Shown piece after piece: positions 5,990 through 54,019 of a DNA stretch of 64,000 nt (positions within the stretch are counted from its first letter, which is position 1; every line of letters begins with the position of its first letter). Source of the DNA: Wenzhouxiangella marina (lineage in GTDB: Bacteria > Pseudomonadota > Gammaproteobacteria > Xanthomonadales > Wenzhouxiangellaceae); the NCBI RefSeq assembly GCF_001187785.1, contig NZ_CP012154.1, positions 304,501 to 368,500 of the forward strand, read 5' to 3'. Below the pieces are notes generated by a model. That model did not search any database. It was given only the letters and a program-made list of their open reading frames with translations, and was not told where the DNA came from. A program made the position numbers and the translations under genes.

Positions 5990-8900
5990 ATGATGAAACT
6001 ACGCTTTAATTCGATTGTTTTGACCGCCGTGTTCTGCTGCACAGTAGGCATCAGCGCGCCGGCCAGTGCTGATGACCTGGATATCGCTCAGACGCCTTTG
6101 TTCGTTGCGGTGAATATCGATCCCAACATCATGTTTACCCTCGACGATTCCGGATCGATGCAGTGGGAGTTCATGCCGGATGGTCCGGAGTTTCGCTACA
6201 CGCTCTTCATGTTCCCTCGCCCGAACGGTTTGTACGGAGGGGTCAACTATGCCAATCAGGTGCCATCTTTTCGCGATGACAGCTTGCACAACTATTTCGG
6301 ACGATCCGCCGCCAACAACGGCGTCTTCTACAACCCGGATTTGACATACAAGCCATGGAAGAATGCCGACGGCAGTTTCATGCCGGACGCCGATCCCCGG
6401 AATGCTCTCTACAATCCCCATATCCCGGGCCTCGGTGATCTGGATCTCCTCGATGAACAGACTCAGAGGGCCGTGTGGTTTCGAGGCAATGCGTTCGATC
6501 AGGCCTTCTGTGATCCCTGCAATGGCGACCACACGTACTGGCCGATCACCTACTACAACTACATCGGCGGCGATCGGACCGACCGCGACAGCTACGAGCG
6601 TGTCCAGATTCGCAACACCACCCCGGCGTCGGCCACCTTCACGAGCCCCGGCGGAATCACGCGGACCCGCAACGAGGAAATCCAGAACTTCGCCAACTGG
6701 TTCCAGTATTCCCGTTCGCGCATCCTGGCTGCGCGAAATGGCATCGGCCGCGCGTTCGCGGAGTTGCCCTCGCGCGCGCGAGTGGGTTTCGCCGCGATCA
6801 ACCAGGACTCGACTTCCGTGGATGGCGTGAACACCCGAACGATCATCGATGGTGTACGACCTTTCGATGGGCTGGATCGCGACAGATTCTACGAAGCCCT
6901 GTATGGGCGGGTCATCAACAATAACGGCACCCCGTTAAGAAGGGCGGCGGAAGATGTGGGTGAATACTTCCAGCGTTCGGATGCCCGTGGCCCCTGGTCC
7001 ACCCTGCCCGGATCGGCCGCGGGTCAGGACTTGTACTGTCGACAGAGCTTTCACATCCTCATGACCGATGGGTTCTGGAACGGTGGTGATCCTGACGTTG
7101 ACAATTCGGACAATACGGCCGGGCCAACGCATTCGAATTCTGCTGGTGACACTGGCGGCTATGTGCCGGTGGATCCTTATCGTGATACCCGTAGCAACAC
7201 CCTGGGCGATGTCGCCATGGAGTTCTGGAAGAACGACCTCCGGGGCGATCTTGAAAACCGGGTCCCCACGAATGACACGGACCCGGCCTTCTGGCAGCAC
7301 TTGACTACCTATGGTATCGGTCTGGGCGTTACTGGTGCGCTCGACCCCGAAGATGTCTTCGAGGCGGTGGAAAATGGCGATGCGGTGGATTGGGGTGACC
7401 CCGCAAACGATAATCCAGCGAAGATCGATGATCTGCTGCATTTCGGCATCAACGGACGAGGCGGGTACTTCAGTGCCTCCGATCCCGACAGCTTCGCCAA
7501 TCAGCTCGGAGCGATCCTGGCGGATATTGCCTCCCGTGCCAACGCCACTACCGGCGCGTCGGTGTCTGCGACCCGCTTGACGACCGGTTCGCTGATCTAC
7601 GCTGCATCCTTCGATACGCAGGGCTGGGTTGGAGAACTCGAGGCGATCGATCCGATTGAAGATGTGGTGGTCGCCGAGGCCAGCGAGCAACTCGCGCTCC
7701 TTGGTGCCGATAACCGCAATATCTGGTCCTGGGACCCGGACGCGGACGCTTCGGCGGAATTCATTTCGGGTAGCGGTGTGCAGGATCGCGTGATGGCCAA
7801 TGCACCGGGTTCTTACACGGCCGATGCGTTGTTCGCTTTCCTGAGAGGGGACAATGTTCCTGGAATGAGATTTCGGTCATCCATGCTGGGAGATATCGTC
7901 GGCTCTCGGCCTGTCTTTTCGGGTCCGGGGAACGAGGGTTGGGCTCGTGTCGATCTTGGATACTTGGGATACATAGACGCAGTCAAACGCGACCCCAGGG
8001 ATCCCTGTGAACAAGAAGATCCGGCGGACTGCGCGGCCGCTCGCTACGATACGGTTTTTGTCGGCTCGAACGATGGCATGCTGCATGCGTTTGATGCACG
8101 GACCATGGACGAGCTGTTCGCCTACGTTCCCGCGGCGGTGCATGAGAATCTTTGGCAGTTGGCGGACCCCGACTATAACCACCGGTTCTACGTTGACGGT
8201 CAAGTGGCGGTGGCGGACGCACTCGAAGGCAGTGGCTGGGGGACTTTTCTGGTGGGAACGCTCGGAGCCGGTGGGCGTGGTGTGTATGCCCTCGATGTAT
8301 CCACGCCGCAGAATTTTGGAGAGAATGATGTGCGGTGGGAGTTCACGGCGGAAGATGACCCTGATCTTGGATATACGTACGGAGATCCTCTGATCACTCG
8401 CCTGGAAAATGAGGAATGGGTAGCCATTTTCGGCAATGGATACAATTCGGCAGATGGGCAGGCCTACCTCTACGTCTTGAACCTCTTCAGCGGCGCAGTG
8501 CTTCACAAGGTTCCCCTTGGTGATCCTGGAGGAAACGGCCTTTCCGGCGTGGCGGGATGGCGAGAGGCAGCAACACGCTCGTACATCGATCGGGTCTATG
8601 CGGGCGATCTCAATGGAACAATGTGGCGCATCGACTTCGAGGGTAGCGAGCCCGTGGTGGTTTACGATGACGGACTGTTCACCGACCCGAACGGTCGGCC
8701 AATCACGGCCACACCCACGATCGCTGCGAACCCGGACGGAGGCTTGAACGTATTCTTCGGTACCGGAAAATTGATCGAGAACAGCGACCGCTTGACCGTG
8801 AACCTGGACCGTTTCTTCGCGATCCGCGACTTGAATGAGCCCGTGAGTAACCTGACTCGCTTGTCGAAAGGCGAAATCGCTTCGGAAGGTGTAGGAGTGA

Positions 8901-13834: not shown

Positions 13835-14172
13835 GGGGAAATCAGGGATTCAAGGGTTCAGGGTTCGGGGTTCAGGGTTGCTCGATGCTGGGCGAAGACA
13901 CCCCGGATTACCGGAGGCCATCGCCCATCCCGTTATCGAAATGACTCGATAGGAACCCTGGGTAGGTCGGGCCCACGTGCCCGACGGTCCATGCTTCAGA
14001 CATCGCGGTCAACTCGACGACGGCGCATTATCGCAGGCTTCGCGGCACATCCGACACACACATAACGCAGGCAACTCTGCGAATGCGACGACTGCCCCCA
14101 GTCTGCTGTTCCCGGTTCTCGGGGCTCCATTCTGAACGCTGAAACCTTCAATCCGAGTCCTTAAACCGGTCG
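13835..14172. other. 338-base intergenic region with repeats
   Basis: No gene is seen here. Next to hemW is a run of short direct repeats of the form GGGTTCA/GGGTTCG (13847-13880). A stand-alone GTAG-headed repeat unit occupies 13962-14070. The remainder, 14075-14165, contains no clear promoter or terminator. Confidence 0.7.
13962..14070 (+). repeat. GTAG-headed REP-like unit, type I, solitary
   Basis: Begins GTAG, then GTCGGGC-CCACGT-GCCCGAC, a perfect 7-bp stem with a 6-base loop, then GGTCCATG and a tail ending in a CATAACGCAG variant of the CATATTGCAG end seen in other copies. It is more diverged in its tail than the clustered copies. Confidence 0.75.
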
Positions 14173-27265: not shown

Positions 27266-27371
27266 GTAGGTCGGCCCCACGTGGCCGACGGTCCATGTCT
27301 CAGGAATCTCCACCAACCCGACGGCGCAATGCCGCCGCCATCGCATGGAACCCGACGCACGCATATCGCAG
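27266..27371 (+). repeat. GTAG-headed REP-like unit, type I, solitary
   Basis: GTAG head, GTCGGCC / GGCCGAC stem around CCACGT-like loop bases, GGTCCATG, then a tail with ACCCGACGG and ACCCGACGC and a CGCATATCGCAG end. It lies between the gltA terminator and the end of the convergent SDR gene. Confidence 0.78.
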
Positions 27372-45006: not shown

Positions 45007-46743
45007 TTGTCCGGACGGATACCCGAAGACTTCATCGAAACCCTCCTCGAGCGGATCGATATCGCCGAAGTGATCGGCCATCGCGTCCAGCTCAAGAATG
45101 CCGGCCGCGGTGAATTCAAGGGCCTCTGCCCGTTTCATAACGAGAAGACTCCCTCCTTCACGGTCAGTACCGACAAGCAGTTCTATCACTGCTTCGGCTG
45201 TGGCGCCCATGGCACAGCCATCGGGTTCCTGATGGAAAACGACGGCCTCGAGTTTCCTGCGGCCATCGAAGAATTGGCGCATATGGTGGGTCTCGAGGTC
45301 CCTCGCGAGGGCGGGGCGCAAGCGCCTGCGCGCAAGAACGACCGTCTCTACCTGGCTCTGCAGGAAGCCCAGACCTGGTTTCGCCACCAGCTGGCGGCCA
45401 GTGAGCCGGCGCGCGACTATCTGAAGCAGCGTGGCTTCGACAAGGCCACCGTCGATGAATTCGGCGTCGGCTGGGCGCCCCAGAGCTGGCAGGGCCTGTC
45501 CGACCATCTGAGTCGCGAGGGTTTCAAGCCGGCCGAGCTCGAGGCCGCCGGTCTGGTGACACGCAAGAACGATCGCATCACCGACAAGTTTCGCGGTCGC
45601 ATCATGTTTCCTATCCACGACCGCCGCGGACGCGTGATCGCCTTCGGCGGTCGGGTGATCGACGATGGCCAGCCGAAGTACATGAACTCGCCGGAAACGC
45701 CGGTCTTTCACAAGGGGCGAGAGCTCTACCGCCTGCACCAGGTCCGCCGCGGTGGCCTGCCGTCGCGCATCCTGGTGGTCGAGGGCTACATGGACGCGGC
45801 CGCCCTGCATCAGTTCGGCTTCCCCGACGCCGTCGCCACCCTGGGCACGGCGGTGACGCCGGACCACCTCGAGGCCCTGTTTCGGGCCACGCCCCTGGTG
45901 GTGTTCTGCTTCGACGGCGACCGGGCCGGCCGCCAGGCGGCCTGGCGCGGGCTCGAGGCGGCGTTGCCGCAGATGAAGGACAACCGCGAGCTGCGCTTTC
46001 TGTTCCTGCCCGAGGGCGAGGACCCGGACAGCCTGGTGCGCGAGCAGGGCAAGGAAGCGCTTGAGGCCCTGATCGACCAGGCCCAGCCCCTGTCGGACTT
46101 CTTTTTCGATCACTTCGCCGCCGAGCTCGACCTGCGCTCTCTCGATGGAAGGGCGCGCCTCGTGGCCCTGGCCGAGCCGCATCTGGACAGGCTTCCGCCC
46201 GGTCCCTTTGCCGATCTGATGCGTGCGGAGCTCAAGTCGCGGGCTGGTCATTCGGGACGCGCGGTGGCGTCTTCACCGGCTCCGATCCGACGGCCGAGCG
46301 GTCTTGATGACGATCGCCCGCTGACCCCGGTACAATACGCGGTCGCCTTGCTCGTGCAGCGCCCTGAACTGGCGACGAGCGATGCGGTCTATCTGCTGGA
46401 GAGCCTGGGATCGATCAAGGGCCTGAATTTCCTTCAGGAATTGATTGACTTTTGCCGCGAAAGGCCCCACCTTTCCACGGCTAAGCTTCTTGAGCTGTGG
46501 CGCGAGCGTCCGGAACAGCCCTGGCTGGCCCGGTTGGCCGCGCGTGACGTGTGTCAGGAAGCAGAACAGATGCCGGCGGCACTGGCGCAAACCCTGGCCA
46601 GAATCCGCCGTATGCAGGTACAGGCACGCGTCCGCGAGCTCCAGCAGGCCCAGATGAACGAAGGGGGGCTGGATGGAACCAGGGCCGCCGAATTGCGCGA
46701 GTTGTTGAGCTTGCGCCTGGAAGACAGTGACCAACCGAATTAG
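45007..46743 (+). CDS. dnaG: DNA primase
   Basis: 578 residues from TTG 45007. Zinc-binding domain with C41, H44, C62 and C65 ([21 protein letters not shown]). The catalytic TOPRIM core has [16 protein letters not shown] and the metal-binding [18 protein letters not shown]. The C-terminal region that binds DnaB helicase is present. It synthesises primers at replication forks. The gene is followed by rpoD after eight bases. No strong Shine-Dalgarno is visible, so the start might instead be slightly different. Confidence 0.94.
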
Positions 46744-46751
46744 TAGTTGAT

Positions 46752-48614
<1,863 letters not shown>

Positions 48615-48663
48615 GTTCGAGCGCCGAAAGGCGGCCTCTCGCGGAGACGCAGAGAAAGTCAGG

Positions 48664-48691
48664 AAAAAGGGGTGCTTCGGCGCCCCTTTTT
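48664..48691 (+). terminator. Intrinsic terminator after rpoD
   Basis: AAAAAGGGGTGC, UUCG tetraloop and GCGCCCCTTTTT form a stem with one G-U pair and a T-run. The A-run before the stem makes it bidirectional-looking. Just upstream, 48632-48660 carries a short CGGAGACGCAGAGAAAG segment like other dispersed intergenic elements. Confidence 0.93.
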
Positions 48692-48792
48692 CATTGCGTT
48701 GCCTGACAGCTTCGAGGGCCATGCCCCGAACATTCCCGTCCGGCCGACGACCGAAACCCGCCGTCCACACCACGCCTGACCGAAGCCCCGAC

Positions 48793-48916
48793 GTAGGTCG
48801 GGCCAGTGCAGGTCGGAGGCGTAGCGCGATTGGCCGGAGGCCAGAAGCGCTGCGCCGAAGACCGACCGCGCGTGCGCCCGACGGACCATGCGCCCGCTAT
48901 CTCCGTCAACCCGACG
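48793..48916 (+). repeat. GTAG-headed unit, type II (expanded loop)
   Basis: Starts GTAGGTCGGGCC, then about 80 bases of loop insert containing GGCCGGAGGCC, then CGCCCGACGGACCATG and a short part of the tail. First unit of the array. Confidence 0.8.
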
Positions 48917-48958
48917 ATCCAGCCCGCCATCCGCACCACGCTTGACCGACGCCCCGAC

Positions 48959-49064
48959 GTAGGTCGGGCCCACGCGCCCGACGGTCCATCTCTCAGCCAT
49001 CTCCGCAAACCGGACGGCGCAATCGCGCAGCCTTCGCGAAGAACCCGACGCACGCATATTGCAG
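48959..49064 (+). repeat. GTAG-headed unit, type I, opens cassette 1
   Basis: 106 bases: GTAG head, GTCGGGC / GCCCGAC stem, GGTCCATC, two ACCCGACG-like boxes and the end CGCATATTGCAG. Almost the same as the units at 49502 and 51977. Confidence 0.88.
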
Positions 49065-49175
49065 CCATCGCCGGCCACCCTACAGCCGATGGTTCCCCAA
49101 CACGCTGCGCCCGATGAGCACCCGGTCAGGAATCGTCGAATCAACGCAGCGCGGGCTCCGTTCGGTTTCATGTGC

Positions 49176-49284
49176 TGGCCGCGATATCCGCGCGTCGGGT
49201 TTTCGGTGGGGATTGCAGCATCTCGCCGTCGAGTTGTTGGAGATGGTTGGGGCATGGACCGTCGGGGACGTGGCCCCGACCTAC
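49176..49284 (-). repeat. GTAG-headed unit, type I, inverted, cassette 1
   Basis: Reverse complement reads GTAGGTCGGGGCCACGTCC, CCGACGGTCCATG, then the tail to GATATCGCGG. With the forward unit at 48959 it forms a large inverted pair around a spacer of about 110 bases. Confidence 0.85.
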
Positions 49285-49371
49285 CGTGGGCTTCGATCGG
49301 GCCTTGTCGATCGTGGGTTTGGCAACGGCATCCGGCAATCCGGGTTGCCTTCGTTCGGCATCGAGCCCAAT

Positions 49372-49421
49372 GTAGGTCGGCCCAGCGCAGATCGGAGGCG
49401 TAGTGCGGTTGGCTGTAGGCC
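49372..49421 (+). repeat. GTAG-headed unit, type II, truncated
   Basis: GTAGGTCGGCCCAGCGCAG followed by the type II insert as far as GGCTGTAGGCC; the closing stem and tail are missing or replaced. Confidence 0.7.
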
Positions 49422-49501
49422 AGGTGCTCCAATGGCTGGAGAAACCTGGCAGCTCCGTCTGGGTTTGCCGATCCGTACCACGCTCATTCGAAGCCCATCG
49501 A

Positions 49502-49607
49502 GTAGGTCGGCCCCACGTGGCCGACGGTCCATCTCTCAGCCATCTCCGCAAACCCGACGGCGCAATCGCGCAGCATTAGCGAAGAACCCGACGCAAGCAT
49601 ATTGCAG
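49502..49607 (+). repeat. GTAG-headed unit, type I, opens cassette 2
   Basis: 106 bases, GTCGGCC / GGCCGAC stem; tail nearly identical to the 48959 unit, with GCATTAGCGAAG in place of CCTTCGCGAAG. Confidence 0.88.
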
Positions 49608-49717
49608 CCATCGCCGGCCACCCTACAGCCGATGGTTCCCCAACACGCTGCGCCCGATGAGCACCCGGTCAGGAATCGTCGAATCAACGCAGCGCGGGCT
49701 CCGTTCGGTTTCATGTG

Positions 49718-49834
49718 CTGGCCGCGATATCCGCGCGTCGGATGTTCGGTGGGGATTGCAGCATCTCGCCGTCGAGTTGTTGGAGATGGTTGGGGCATGG
49801 ACCGTCGGGGACGTGGACAGTGGCCCCGACCTAC
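49718..49834 (-). repeat. GTAG-headed unit, type I, inverted, cassette 2
   Basis: Inverted copy matching 49176-49284 but with an insert of about 8 bases (ACAGTGGC region) inside the hairpin loop. Confidence 0.84.
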
Positions 49835-49921
49835 CGCAGGCTTCGATCGGGCGCTGTCGATCGTGGGTTTGGCAACGGCATCCGTAAATCCGGGTTGCCT
49901 TCGTTCGACATCGAGCCCAAT

Positions 49922-50000
49922 GTAGGTCGGCCTAGCGCAGGCCGGAGGCGTAGTGCGGTTGGTCGTAGGACCATACGCCCGCTATCTCCGTCAACCCGAC
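49922..50000 (+). repeat. GTAG-headed unit, type II, internally deleted
   Basis: Head GTAGGTCGGCCTAGCGCAG and insert start as in other type II units, then a jump to GACCATACGCCCGCTATC; most of the closing stem is missing. Confidence 0.75.
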
Positions 50001-50043
50001 TATCCAGCCCGCCATCCGCACCACGCCTGACCGAAGCCCCGAC

Positions 50044-50149
50044 GTAGGTCGGCCCCACGTGGCCGACGGACCATGTTGCAGACATCTCCGTCGCCTCGAC
50101 GACGAGATGATGAATCCACCACCAGGAACCCGACGCACGCATATTGCAG
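50044..50149 (+). repeat. GTAG-headed unit, type I, end of left array
   Basis: 106 bases with GTCGGCC / GGCCGAC stem and a distinct tail centre (GACGAGATGATGAATCCACC), the same variant as the unit at 52568. Ends CGCATATTGCAG. Confidence 0.86.
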
Positions 50150-50368
50150 ACCAAGTTGCAGACACCTCCGTAAACTTGACGGCTGAGCACCGGGGCTCGC
50201 ACCACGCTCGGTAAAAGGCCGGCATGATCGGATTCCGCCTGCTTGTCTATCTCGTTTCTTGCCCCAAGCTCTTTGATGAGACGCCGGCCGATCGGATCGC
50301 TGATCGGGGAGTGAGGTCTCTGTAAGCGATTGGCTATAAATGCCCGTTGCCGTTATCAGGAGGGTTTC

Positions 50369-51121
50369 ATGAACAAGCCGTGGTGGATTCGTTATTCCAG
50401 CCTTCTCGTACTTCTGGGTGGCCTGTCGCTGGGGCTGCATACACCGCCCGCGTCGGCGCAGCTGAGTCTTCCGCTGGACTATCCCGAGAGCATCTACCTG
50501 TGTCCCGCTTTTACGGAGGCCGATCGTGACAGCCATCGCTTTCCCTTCGGCCTGGGGCTGGATGGAAGGCGCCAGGACTTCGATCGTCTGTTCGAGGCGG
50601 AGCCCTATGTGGCCTTGGCCATGCTGTTGTTCGCGCCGGTGGAGGGCTGGTTGCAGTCGCACGCCGGTCGCGGGGGTGGGTCAGCGTCGTTCAATTTCGA
50701 CGTCGATGCGCTCGACCTGAGTGTCGCCTTCGATGAACTGTTTGCTTCCTATCGGTCCGAGCGGGGTTTCTCCCTCGAGGCCTACGAGGGCTTCTGGTTG
50801 AACGTTGACCGCCTGATCGCGGCCGCCGACGCGAAGCTGGAGGGCAACATCGGAGTCCTGGTCGAGTTCTCCACCCCGGTCGATGTGGGCCCGGGGGACC
50901 AGGGCCGGATTCGCGTGCAGCTCGTTCAGGAGTTCATCGATGTCGAATCGAGGACCCTGCAGGCGCTGGAGGAGACTCGGCGCGTCTTCGATCTGTTTCT
51001 TGATGAACCCGGCTCGACCTCGTTTCCCATCATGAGCCGTTACGGCGTCAGCGCCGATGCCAGGCTCCATGCCTTCGAACTGAAGCCGGTTTCGCTGTTG
51101 CAAGACGTCGGTCCGCGATAG
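50369..51121 (+). CDS. Secreted protein of unknown function
   Basis: 250 residues from ATG 50369 with a strong CAGGAGGG ribosome site. Signal peptide residues about 1-31 (cleavage near PASAQ). The mature protein has no motif I recognise: it is acidic and contains aromatic residues and regular helical stretches (LQALEETRRVFDLFLDEPG). Two cysteines at most; one (CPAF) follows the mature N-terminus. It forms a pair with the gene 26 bases downstream, and the pair is bordered on both sides by repeat arrays. The localisation is predicted to be periplasmic or outer membrane; the function is unknown. Confidence 0.7.
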   Translation: MNKPWWIRYSSLLVLLGGLSLGLHTPPASAQLSLPLDYPESIYLCPAFTEADRDSHRFPFGLGLDGRRQDFDRLFEAEPYVALAMLLFAPVEGWLQSHAGRGGGSASFNFDVDALDLSVAFDELFASYRSERGFSLEAYEGFWLNVDRLIAAADAKLEGNIGVLVEFSTPVDVGPGDQGRIRVQLVQEFIDVESRTLQALEETRRVFDLFLDEPGSTSFPIMSRYGVSADARLHAFELKPVSLLQDVGPR

Positions 51122-51147
51122 GTGCTGGTTTCCGTCGAGCGTTGCCT

Positions 51148-51939
51148 GTGAACCGCCTTCGTCTTGCGATTGCATTGCTTGTTGGCTTCGCTCTGCTGCT
51201 GGCGTGGCTTTTTCGGCTGCAGGGTCCGGCACCGATGCCTCCGCCCCAGGGCGCGCCCGCAACGTCCGTCCCGGCGCTCGAGCCGATGCTGTCGGACTCG
51301 AGCGATGCGCTTGTGCTCGAGTCCCCGGAATCCGCTCCAATATCGAATTCGGCCCCGGAGCCTGGCCAGGCTCGCTCCGAGCCGACAGCGTCCGCTGACG
51401 ACAGACGGCCCACCCTGCCACCCGCCGAAGCGGCCATGGCCGAATGGCGCGAAGCCACGCTGCAGGTGCCCATGCGCGTGCGCGATGCCGTTGTTCGGAT
51501 GAGCGACGAGGAACTTCGGGCCCTGGCGGAAGCCGGCGATCCCTTCGCCCAGTTCGAGTTCGGGGTACGTCTGGCGCACAACCGCGACCGGGGTGTCGAG
51601 GGCATCGAGTGGTTCATGGAGGCAGCCTCTCAGGGCAGCATCGAGGCGGCCCAGCAGATTGCGATGATCTACCTGGCCGGGGCCGGCGGGGTCGAGCGGG
51701 ACCGGCTGGCAGCGGTCGCCTGGCTGCAGGTCGCGCAGGCGATGGGAGATTGGACAGCAATGTACCCTGGCTATAACCTCCGGCGCGAGTTCAGTCGTGA
51801 AGAGCTCATGCTCCTCGACATCTTCGAATCCGAGCTGCTGCAGGAGCTCAACCGTCGGCATGTCGAACGGACGGGTCAGCCGCTGCCTTATCGCCCTCGA
51901 CCGGGAACGGACCAGCTTCTGGATCCAGGCGACGGCTAG
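51148..51939 (+). CDS. Membrane-anchored protein with Sel1-like repeats
   Basis: 263 residues from GTG 51148 (MNRLRLAIALLVGFALLLAWLF); a TTG two codons earlier is possible. One N-terminal hydrophobic segment (residues about 5-23) would anchor it, followed by a long proline/serine-rich linker (to about residue 95). The C-terminal part has two Sel1/TPR-like helices pairs: LAEAGDPFAQFEFGVRLAH and AASQGSIEAAQQIAMIYLAGAGG. Sel1 repeats usually mediate protein-protein contact. Its partner may be the secreted protein encoded just upstream. The right repeat array begins 37 bases after the stop. Confidence 0.7.
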   Translation: MNRLRLAIALLVGFALLLAWLFRLQGPAPMPPPQGAPATSVPALEPMLSDSSDALVLESPESAPISNSAPEPGQARSEPTASADDRRPTLPPAEAAMAEWREATLQVPMRVRDAVVRMSDEELRALAEAGDPFAQFEFGVRLAHNRDRGVEGIEWFMEAASQGSIEAAQQIAMIYLAGAGGVERDRLAAVAWLQVAQAMGDWTAMYPGYNLRREFSREELMLLDIFESELLQELNRRHVERTGQPLPYRPRPGTDQLLDPGDG

Positions 51940-51976
51940 CTCCGGCCTGCGCCGTGCCCGATCGAAGCCGCGACGA

Positions 51977-52094
51977 GTAGGTCGGGCTCACACGCCCGAC
52001 GGACCATGTCCCTGTCCATCTCTCAGCCATCTCCGCAAACCCGACGGCGCAATCGCGCAGCATTAGCGAAGAACCCGACGCACGCATATTGCAG
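51977..52094 (+). repeat. GTAG-headed unit, type I, opens cassette 3
   Basis: 118 bases. Stem GTCGGGC / GCCCGAC around TCACAC. Contains an extra 12 bases (GTCCCTGTCCAT region) after GGACCATG, otherwise as the 48959 and 49502 units. Confidence 0.85.
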
Positions 52095-52204
52095 CCATCG
52101 CCGACCACCCTACGGCCGATGGTTCCCCAACACGCTGCGCCCGATGAGCACCCGGTCAGGAATCGTCGAATCAACGCAGCGTGGGCTCCGTTCGGTTTCA
52201 TGTG

Positions 52205-52314
52205 CTGGCCGCGATATCCGCGCGTCGGGTTTTCGGTGGGGATTGCAGCATCTCGCCGTCGAGTTGTTGGAGATGGTTGGGGCATGGACCGTCGGGGACG
52301 TGGCCCCGACCTAC
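52205..52314 (-). repeat. GTAG-headed unit, type I, inverted, cassette 3
   Basis: Almost identical to the inverted unit at 49176-49284, including the GTCGGGGACGTGGCCCCGAC core. Confidence 0.85.
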
Positions 52315-52401
52315 CGTGGGCTTCGATCGGACGTTGTCGATCGTGGTTTTGGCAACGGCATCCGTAAATCCGGGTTGCCTTCGTTCGACATCGAGCCCAA
52401 T

Positions 52402-52524
52402 GTAGGTCGGCCCAGCGCAGATCGGAGGCGTAGTGCGGTTGGCCGGAGGCCAGAAGCGCTGCGCCGAAGACCGACCGCGTGTGCGCCCGACGGACCATAC
52501 GCCCGCTATCTCCGTCAACCCGAC
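52402..52524 (+). repeat. GTAG-headed unit, type II (expanded loop)
   Basis: Full-length type II unit nearly identical to 48793-48916, with the GGCCGGAGGCC insert and closing CGCCCGACGGACCAT. Confidence 0.8.
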
Positions 52525-52567
52525 GATCCAGCCCGCCGTCCACACCACGCCTGACCGAAGCCCCGAG

Positions 52568-52673
52568 GTAGGTCGGGCCCACGCGCCCGACGGACCATGT
52601 TGCAGACATCTCCGTCGCCTCGACGACGAGATGATGAATCCACCACCAGGAACCCGACGCACGCATATTGCAG
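52568..52673 (+). repeat. GTAG-headed unit, type I, opens truncated cassette
   Basis: 106 bases, same tail variant as 50044-50149. After it the cassette spacer (CCCAACACGCTGCGCCCGAT) continues to about 52760 and then stops. Confidence 0.85.
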
Positions 52674-52822
52674 CCATCGCCGACCACCCTACGGCCGATG
52701 GCTCCCCAACACGCTGCGCCCGATAGGTACCCGGTCTGGATCGTCGAATCAATGCAGGACCATGTCCCAGCGATCTCCGTCAACGCGACGATCGACAAGA
52801 CGATCGACGCCCCCGGACCCCT

Positions 52823-53878
52823 TCAGAAGGTCCGGCTTCTGACCGTCTCCACCAGCACCTCGACGTGCTCCGGCGGCACCTCGGGGGTGATCCCGTGGCC
52901 CAGATTGAAGATATGGCCCGGGCCGTCGCCGAAGCTGTCGAGGACGCGGCGGGTCTCGGCCTGGATGATCTCCGGGCTGGTCAGTAGCACTGCGGGGTCG
53001 AGGTTGCCCTGCAGGGCCACGCGATGGCCGACGCGCTCGCGCGCTTCGCTCAGGTCCATGGTCCAGTCCACGCCCAGGCCCTGGCAGCCCGTGTCGGCGA
53101 GTAGCTCCAGGTGCTGGCCACAGCCCTTGCCGAACAGGATCAGCGGGGTGTCAGGGCAGCGCTCCTTCAGCCGGTCGACGATGCGCTGCTGCGAGGCCAG
53201 GGAATAGTCCCGATACAGCGTTGGCGACAGGGCACCGCCCCAGGAGTCGAAGATCATCAGGGCATCGGCGCCGGCCTCGACCTGGGCGGCGAGGTAATCG
53301 GCGGTGGTGTCGGCCAGGTGGTTCATCAGCTGATGGGCGGCCTCGGGCGCGCCGAGGAGCAGCTTCTTGGCGTTGGCGAAGTCCTTGCTCGAGCGACCCT
53401 CGATCATGTAGGTGGCCACGGTCCAGGGGCTGCCGGCGAAGCCGATCAGGGGCGTGCCCTCGGGCAGGTCCCGGCGGATCAGGCGCACGGCCTCCATGAC
53501 ATAGCCCGTGTCGTCTTTGGGGTCCGGCGTGGGCAGGGCGGCGACGTCGTCGGGCGTTCGCACGGGACGCTCGAAGTAGGGGCCTTCGCCGGCCTGGAAA
53601 CCCAGCCCGAGCCCCATCGCGTGCGGCAGGATCAGGATGTCGGAAAACAGGATCGCCGCATCGAAGCCGTAGCGTTCGATCGGCTGCAGCGTGACCTCGC
53701 AGGCGAGCTCCGGGTTGCCGGCCAGCTTCAGAAAGCTGCCGGCCTTGGCGCGGGTGGCGCGGTATTCCGGCAGGTAGCGCCCGGCCTGGCGCATCAGCCA
53801 CATCGGGCGGCGTTCGGTGGGCTCGCGCCGAAGCGCCTTCATGAACAGGGAGTCTTTGATCGAAGAACTAGAAGTCAT
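52823..53878 (-). CDS. hemE: Uroporphyrinogen decarboxylase
   Basis: 351 residues from ATG 53878 with AGGA seven bases upstream. Family motifs: PMWLMRQAGRYLPEYRATRAKAGSFL (the RQAGR substrate motif), AAILFSDILILPHAMGLGLGF with the catalytic Asp, GFAGSPWTVATYMIEG and FGKGCGQHL; the C-terminus has NLGHGITPEVPPEHV. It decarboxylates uroporphyrinogen III to coproporphyrinogen III. Order aroK-aroB-hemE on the minus strand; a long inverted repeat separates aroB from hemE. Confidence 0.95.
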   Translation of the reverse strand: MTSSSSIKDSLFMKALRREPTERRPMWLMRQAGRYLPEYRATRAKAGSFLKLAGNPELACEVTLQPIERYGFDAAILFSDILILPHAMGLGLGFQAGEGPYFERPVRTPDDVAALPTPDPKDDTGYVMEAVRLIRRDLPEGTPLIGFAGSPWTVATYMIEGRSSKDFANAKKLLLGAPEAAHQLMNHLADTTADYLAAQVEAGADALMIFDSWGGALSPTLYRDYSLASQQRIVDRLKERCPDTPLILFGKGCGQHLELLADTGCQGLGVDWTMDLSEARERVGHRVALQGNLDPAVLLTSPEIIQAETRRVLDSFGDGPGHIFNLGHGITPEVPPEHVEVLVETVRSRTF

Positions 53879-53909
53879 TGCAGTGTCCTGAACTCCTAAA
53901 AAAATGCAT

Positions 53910-53988
53910 TCACCACAGAGGCACGGAGACACGGAGAAAAAGAAATTTGATCACTTTTCTCTCTGTGTACTCTGTGCCTCTGTGGTGA
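53910..53988. repeat. CACAGAG long inverted repeat, copy 2
   Basis: TCACCACAGAGGCAC at 53910-53924 pairs with GTGCCTCTGTGGTGA at 53974-53988; the inner part (CGGAGACACGGAGAAAA against TTTTCTCTCTGTGT) pairs imperfectly. It lies between aroB and hemE, both read leftwards, so here it would be a partial terminator rather than a convergent one. Related to 41670-41746. Confidence 0.85.
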
Positions 53989-54019
53989 GTCTGTTTTTGA
54001 ATTTGACTTTGTTTTTTCG

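Follow-up and report, generated by a model that had tools for sequence, protein, structure and literature searches.

GTAG-tagged REP sequences in a periodic, probably BIME/REPIN-type array between rpoD and hemE of Wenzhouxiangella marina

The DNA between rpoD and hemE of Wenzhouxiangella marina carries a periodic array of GTAG-tagged REPs, identified as such by hairpins with compensatory changes in their stems. The array is probably of the BIME/REPIN type and belongs with the only RAYT gene of the genome, for which the GTAG hairpins would be the target, while exchange between direct copies would account for the period. Less usual here is that some REP hairpins hold a second conserved hairpin in their loop. 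REP/RAYT systems are widespread in bacteria, and both the spread of REPs and the formation of their arrays are unsettled. Since this one closed genome combines several arrays, each with its own period, with a single RAYT, dispersal and local amplification can be distinguished in it. The long-form REP with its covarying nested hairpin widens the range of known REP structures and is directly testable against RAYT.

Organisation of the array and its REP units

The window, i.e. the whole stretch of 64,000 nucleotides that was analysed, corresponds to bases 304501-368500 of a closed contig of 3,675,202 bases. The array is located between the convergent genes rpoD (46752-48614, plus strand) and hemE (52823-53932, minus strand), and is split into a left and a right part by two plus-strand ORFs, g1 (50369-51121, 250 aa, no family) and g2 (51148-51939, 263 aa, weak Sel1-type similarity). 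A 33-nt unit headed by GTAG is found at 48959, 49502, 50044, 51977 and 52568, with spacings of 543, 542, 1933 and 591 nt. The first-pass annotation had reported the first three of these units and the two intervals between them, and both were recovered, the inverted partners extending to 49284 and 49834. The order proposed for each interval was likewise found in both: forward unit, spacer (108 nt for a predicted length of about 110), inverted unit and a third element referred to as type II. The latter had been taken for a separate unit; it is in fact a long form of the REP.

The left array opens with a full-length, 90-nt long-form REP on the plus strand (48793-48882; fold z -5.5, recognized by the module model). 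It is followed by a first inverted REP pair of 326 nt (48959-49284) with the GTAG ends outside, whose cores (48959-48982, plus; 49261-49284, minus) flank the 108-nt spacer and whose 109-nt arms are 73% complementary. An 87-nt linker (49285-49371), which according to the linker comparison recurs within the array and in those of other loci of this genome, leads to a truncated long-form REP with the junction to the following unit (49372-49501, plus). The second inverted pair (49502-49834, 333 nt) has cores at 49502-49525 (plus) and 49804-49834 (minus). The latter carries a 7-nt duplication in its loop; the strict REP pattern missed it and it was entered by hand in the pair comparison. A second truncated long-form REP with its junction (49922-50043, plus) and a third, truncated forward REP unit (50044-50149, plus) end the left array. 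The right array (51977-52591) is a related copy, in which the array resumes past the two ORFs. It comprises an inverted pair of 338 nt (51977-52314; cores 51977-52000, plus, and 52291-52314, minus), a full-length long-form REP (52402-52491, plus) and a last forward REP unit (52568-52695, plus; core 52568-52591). The two long-form REPs within the intervals extend over 130 and 122 nt up to the next unit, compared to 166 nt for the full-length ones at 48793 and 52402. Over a 300-nt stretch of the cassette, the copies at 49527 and 52014 are, ungapped, 95% and 98% identical to that at 48984. When gaps are included, identity is 94.2% between the cassettes of the two intervals, and 92.7 and 90.9% between these and the copy on the right.

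The short REP has a 24-nt core made of GTAG, a perfect 7-bp stem and a 6-nt loop. One hundred cores were found in 259,019 bases, i.e. the window and 20 stretches picked for their BLAST matches, and none in each of five first-order Markov shuffles. All seven stem pairs are intact in 99 of the 100 cores; the exception, at 2779976, has broken pairs and is probably a chance match. Five of the pairs are fixed by the core pattern and the two that it leaves free covary (G-C 69 and C-G 30 for one; C-G 59 and G-C 40 for the other). Genome-wide, a covariance model returned at least 116 matches (E up to 0.1), a lower bound since 150 of 7880 candidates were scored. Once the two weakest were excluded, the remaining 114 fell into 35 loci. 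The REP identity and the hairpin that had been proposed from the GTAG head are borne out by these stems and copy numbers. Within the window, to which this assessment applies, the REPs lie between likely genes of the ORF list, including two single short cores away from the array (13962-13985 and 27266-27289, both plus). A second class of tail was also observed after the stem of 11 of the 100 cores, with GACCGGAG or GTCCGGAG in place of GGTCCATG or GGACCATG. Such cores are often one partner of an inverted pair (L042:3495-4166; L047; L039; L032:6748-6876).

Dispersal, local amplification and the RAYT gene

The inverted pairs are repeated and fold as single long hairpins, in keeping with the BIME organisation suggested earlier. 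The pair at 48959-49284 forms one hairpin over nearly its full length (about 320 nt), with a z of -6.5 and none of 100 shuffles folding as well; the pair at L037:11211-11564 reaches -8.9, and an unplanned control stretch outside the arrays -0.7. Thirty-nine inverted pairs with GTAG ends outside, spanning 138-417 nt, were compared. The mean identity of copies was 0.918 within a locus (35 comparisons) and 0.680 between loci (706), the two L045 sites, 8.7 kb apart, being treated as one locus, and some copies at different loci were as alike as 0.946. In a tree of the pairs, copies from the same locus mostly cluster together, and relatives of the same size class are also present at distant loci, such as those of 207-208 nt at 1006836, 2472013 and 2859386. 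The arrays of the window, L034 and L035 have the 87-nt linker in common, with 93-94% identity among the copies of the window and 81-89% in the best matches between the window and the others. The composite of pair and linker is found at several loci and in local tandem copies, and is thus dispersed as well as locally amplified. The tandem cassette had initially been opposed to scattered pairs, an opposition that does not hold because the composite, linker included, is itself scattered to other loci.

Periodic arrangement is not unique to the window. At other loci of the same genome, periods of 484-485 nt (three pairs), 408 (four pairs), 461-463, 396-397, 380-381, 210 and 208 nt were measured, and arrays are present in three relatives of the genus: G027 (224-228 and 166 nt, beside RAYT), G016 (204) and G005 (376). 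In L037, non-neighbouring units are most alike (98.9, 95.8 and 95.1%, versus 87.6-94.0% for neighbours), as an exchange of blocks would predict. This pattern is not general, however, as the most similar units of L034 (99.4%) are adjacent. The first-pass annotation had proposed a recent expansion. Local expansion is upheld by the identities within and between loci, by the linkers repeated along with the pairs and by L037, but that it was recent is less clear from the copies of the window, which are 91-94% identical, or 95-98% over the best 300 nt.

A single Y1_Tnp gene exceeds the Pfam cut-off in this genome (G000:C1:2854940-2855449). Together with the further REP copies, whose GTAG head and stem are conserved, it provides both elements that a genome search was expected to reveal. 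The NCBIfam model REP_Tyr_transpos scores it at 139.2 bits for a cut-off of 80. Its sole relative in the PDB at E up to 0.001 is TnpAREP (4er8, E 2.9e-19), with which the HMH motif is aligned and Tyr120 stands opposite Tyr115; Y115F is named as a catalytic mutant of TnpAREP in the accessible text of PMC8266576. Inverted REPs flank the gene (L032:6941-7450) at 6853-6876 (plus) and 7629-7652 (minus). Around it (G000:C1:2756314-2912905), 9 of the 35 REP loci lie within 100 kb where 1.9 were expected, a post hoc enrichment evaluated at four radii (p 0.001, 5e-5, 0.002 and 0.04) with the RAYT locus itself counted. Preferential formation of REPs near RAYT has been reported (PMC2817692, text available in part). 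Among eight RAYT loci examined, short-form matches occur within 2 kb of the gene in seven, and long-form matches at that distance in three (L032, L053, L057). The RAYT locus of G011 and that of Wenzhouxiangella sp. 15190 (L102) have equal REP scores and spacing (718 nt), and L058 and L102 among the eight are probably one locus. In the genus, REPs were detected by the R2 core model in all nine genomes with a RAYT match, two of which are fragments. They were also detected in 13 of the 21 genomes devoid of such a match, including two that are 99% complete (G003 with 12 REPs and G013 with 59), and were lacking in the other 8. The association is weak (one-sided Fisher p 0.035, fragments counted as RAYT). 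In the 13 genomes, either REPs are maintained in the absence of RAYT or its gene escaped detection.

According to the proposed mechanism, RAYT would act on single-stranded GTAG hairpins and contribute to the dispersal of the composites to intergenic sites. Where direct copies have become adjacent, their number could be altered by unequal exchange or slippage among repeats of 200-540 bp, processes that could also keep the period constant at each locus and shuffle blocks of REP and tail among cassettes. The composite, which may be mobile, is present at several loci, and the whole interval is missing from the seven relatives described below. The periodic arrays might instead have been made by RAYT itself, either through repeated insertion into an existing array or through rolling copy-out, and not by recombination between direct repeats. 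The composite and its linker at several loci, the density of REP loci near RAYT and the dense array of one orientation that surrounds the RAYT of G027 are in favor of this origin. Nevertheless, linkers and truncated long-form REPs repeat with the cassette and the period is particular to each locus, as expected if a local segment was duplicated, which makes an origin through RAYT itself unlikely. In the closed genome of G027, the 23 REP cores that surround RAYT in this array (L226:4957-13445) all point the same way, and lower-scoring model matches are interspersed among them on the opposite strand.

In the window, REPs alternate in orientation and are repeated in tandem with their flanks, as in BIME/REPIN clusters. 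Since tandem arrays of this type are already published, that of the window belongs to a known kind. In Pseudomonas fluorescens SBW25, inverted REP pairs are likewise repeated in tandem with their flanks and higher-order clusters lie beside RAYT genes; REPIN doublets peak there at 71 and 110 bp, in contrast to the 138-417 nt found here, where the linker itself is dispersed and the cassette includes long-form REPs with a module in their loop (PMC3116915, as far as its text is accessible). The GTAG REP families share the tag, a stem within the 5-13 bp range, dimers with GTAG ends outside or inside, and clusters repeating dimers with flanking DNA (PMC3733652, in part). Inverted REPs around RAYT, REPs commoner near the gene and alternating REPs with regular spacing are also features of the BIMEs and REP-rayt-REP elements of PMC2817692; differences from the portion of that paper at hand are the composite of about 408-540 bp, the several locus-specific periods in a single genome and the nested loop module. 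The E. coli system has a homologous transposase with aligned HUH and Tyr residues, GTAG hairpins and tandem BIMEs, but its REPs need a bulge, unlike the perfect 7-bp stems of the short REPs described here (PDB 4er8; PMC8266576, partial text).

History of the locus

Of 30 genomes of the genus, 23 gave a hemE match, W. marina included, and 19 of the 22 relatives among them were examined; in the three others the match was partial or lay at the end of a contig. In all seven relatives in which the region could be read, rpoD is the immediate neighbor of hemE, the ends of the tblastn matches being 19-112 nt apart, and neither the array nor g1 and g2 are present; ten others have no rpoD match in the stretch and two contigs end too soon. 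No match to g1 was found in 100 relatives. For g2, matches in 18 of the 100 were distant and none was found among 29 relatives of the genus; the one full-length relative (L229) has no g1 alongside. As far as seen, the approximately 4.2 kb formed by the arrays and the two ORFs are therefore particular to this lineage, and would have come to sit between rpoD and hemE with the ORFs between the arrays. Direct repeats of roughly 300 nt flank the ORFs (50369-51939), whose deletion or duplication could thus result from recombination. An assignment of g1 and g2 to phage genes was rejected, as g1 has no PHROG match and g2 falls in a family of unknown function. A g1-g2 operon elsewhere was rejected as well, from the neighborhood of L229.

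A position between convergent genes could also mean that some host function preserves the array at this site, such as transcription end, mRNA stability or the binding of gyrase or IHF, and gyrase binding, IHF binding and effects on termination are reported for BIMEs and REPs in the available part of PMC2817692. This is quite improbable given that the array is missing here in the seven readable relatives and that rpoD possesses a separate hairpin with a T run behind it (48669-48691, identified by eye and not listed by the pattern scan). Entry of g1-g2 and the flanking direct copies as one composite unit, with the arrays as its ends, would account for the direct orientation of the arrays on either side, for the restricted distribution of both ORFs and for the absence of the interval in the readable relatives, but is very doubtful: the two arrays have different numbers of units and different ends, neither a second copy nor a target duplication was observed, and the g2 relative L229 has no neighboring g1.

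The long-form REP and its nested module

The element termed type II, a long-form REP of 90 nt, combines the usual GTAG and outer stem with 66 extra nucleotides in the loop that extend the hairpin. A REP-unrelated unit was therefore rejected. Four examples fold with z of -5.5, -1.9, -4.2 and -2.5. Among the 12 copies of this genome, 96.2% of 420 cells pair (94.4% in shuffles), and four of five measures exceed the shuffles, the exception being further pair types (333 of 500 shuffles). A set of 33 distinct rows, drawn largely from relatives, has pairing in 92.7% of 1129 cells, compared to 76.9% in shuffles and at most 45.2% with slid partners, and changes on both sides occur in 170 cells (51.6 in shuffles), the alignment being fitted to the model itself. 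The underlying alignment has 35 rows, of which 12 have no GTAG head, one is the reverse strand of another and one is a truncated unit.

Within the genus, 20 of the 30 genomes contain the module (E up to 0.001). When 299 genomes of the order were searched under stricter filters (E up to 1e-4), it was recovered from 18 genomes within the genus and from a single genome of a different genus in the family, which is the scope of the module family so far. In several relatives, long forms outnumber the short forms recognized by R2 (34 versus 2 in G028, 10 versus 1 in G012, 14 versus 0 in G006), a model trained on the stems of W. marina that may miss short REPs elsewhere. Six copies of W. marina carry a diverged module in reverse orientation. 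In relatives, the module stands in tandem inside one outer stem (L275, L278), and it also exists without a GTAG stem, both in a relative (L277:368-439) and in W. marina (L283:441-703, L285:409-493). Its two orientations and the copies outside REPs favor insertion of the module into short REPs over the formation of short REPs by module loss. Tentatively, a family of palindromic modules of about 66-72 nt may live mainly in REP loops, in both orientations and at times as tandem copies, and move or be copied there, as a nested parasite or an accessory arm of the RAYT/REP system that would turn 24-nt REPs into 90-nt long forms.

The published loop range of 2-20 bp includes the 6-nt loop of the short form and is exceeded by the long form. 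It comes from the table of PMC3733652, in the accessible text of which repeats with unusual loops are discarded; compared to the families described there, the long form has its 66 extra nucleotides as a conserved hairpin. RepRanger has a default loop limit of 11 nt, and Wenzhouxiangella is absent from the text of it that is accessible. In the open-access literature, no title on nested hairpins in REP loops was found among those listed, nor any paper combining Wenzhouxiangella with repetitive extragenic palindromic sequences, and one Wenzhouxiangella paper that mentions repeats has no transposon or palindrome terms in its available text. Judged from this literature, the long-form REP, with the covarying hairpin nested in its loop, is undescribed.

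Additional observations concern the module and the surroundings of the array. The module without GTAG occurs twice with the same flanks in L283 and in tandem at L273:473-678. Assignment to an Rfam family was rejected for the module, 14 loci of which matched rRNA alone (E up to 0.05). It was also rejected for the array, as positions 46000-54000 gave four microRNA-family matches near 53.9 kb, all below gathering scores. These sub-threshold matches fall on a separate long inverted repeat (CACCACAGAGGCACGGAGACACGGAG...CTCTGTGCCTCTGTGGTG) at 53906-53996, at the 5' end of hemE. Long inverted repeats of this kind are common in bacterial intergenic DNA.
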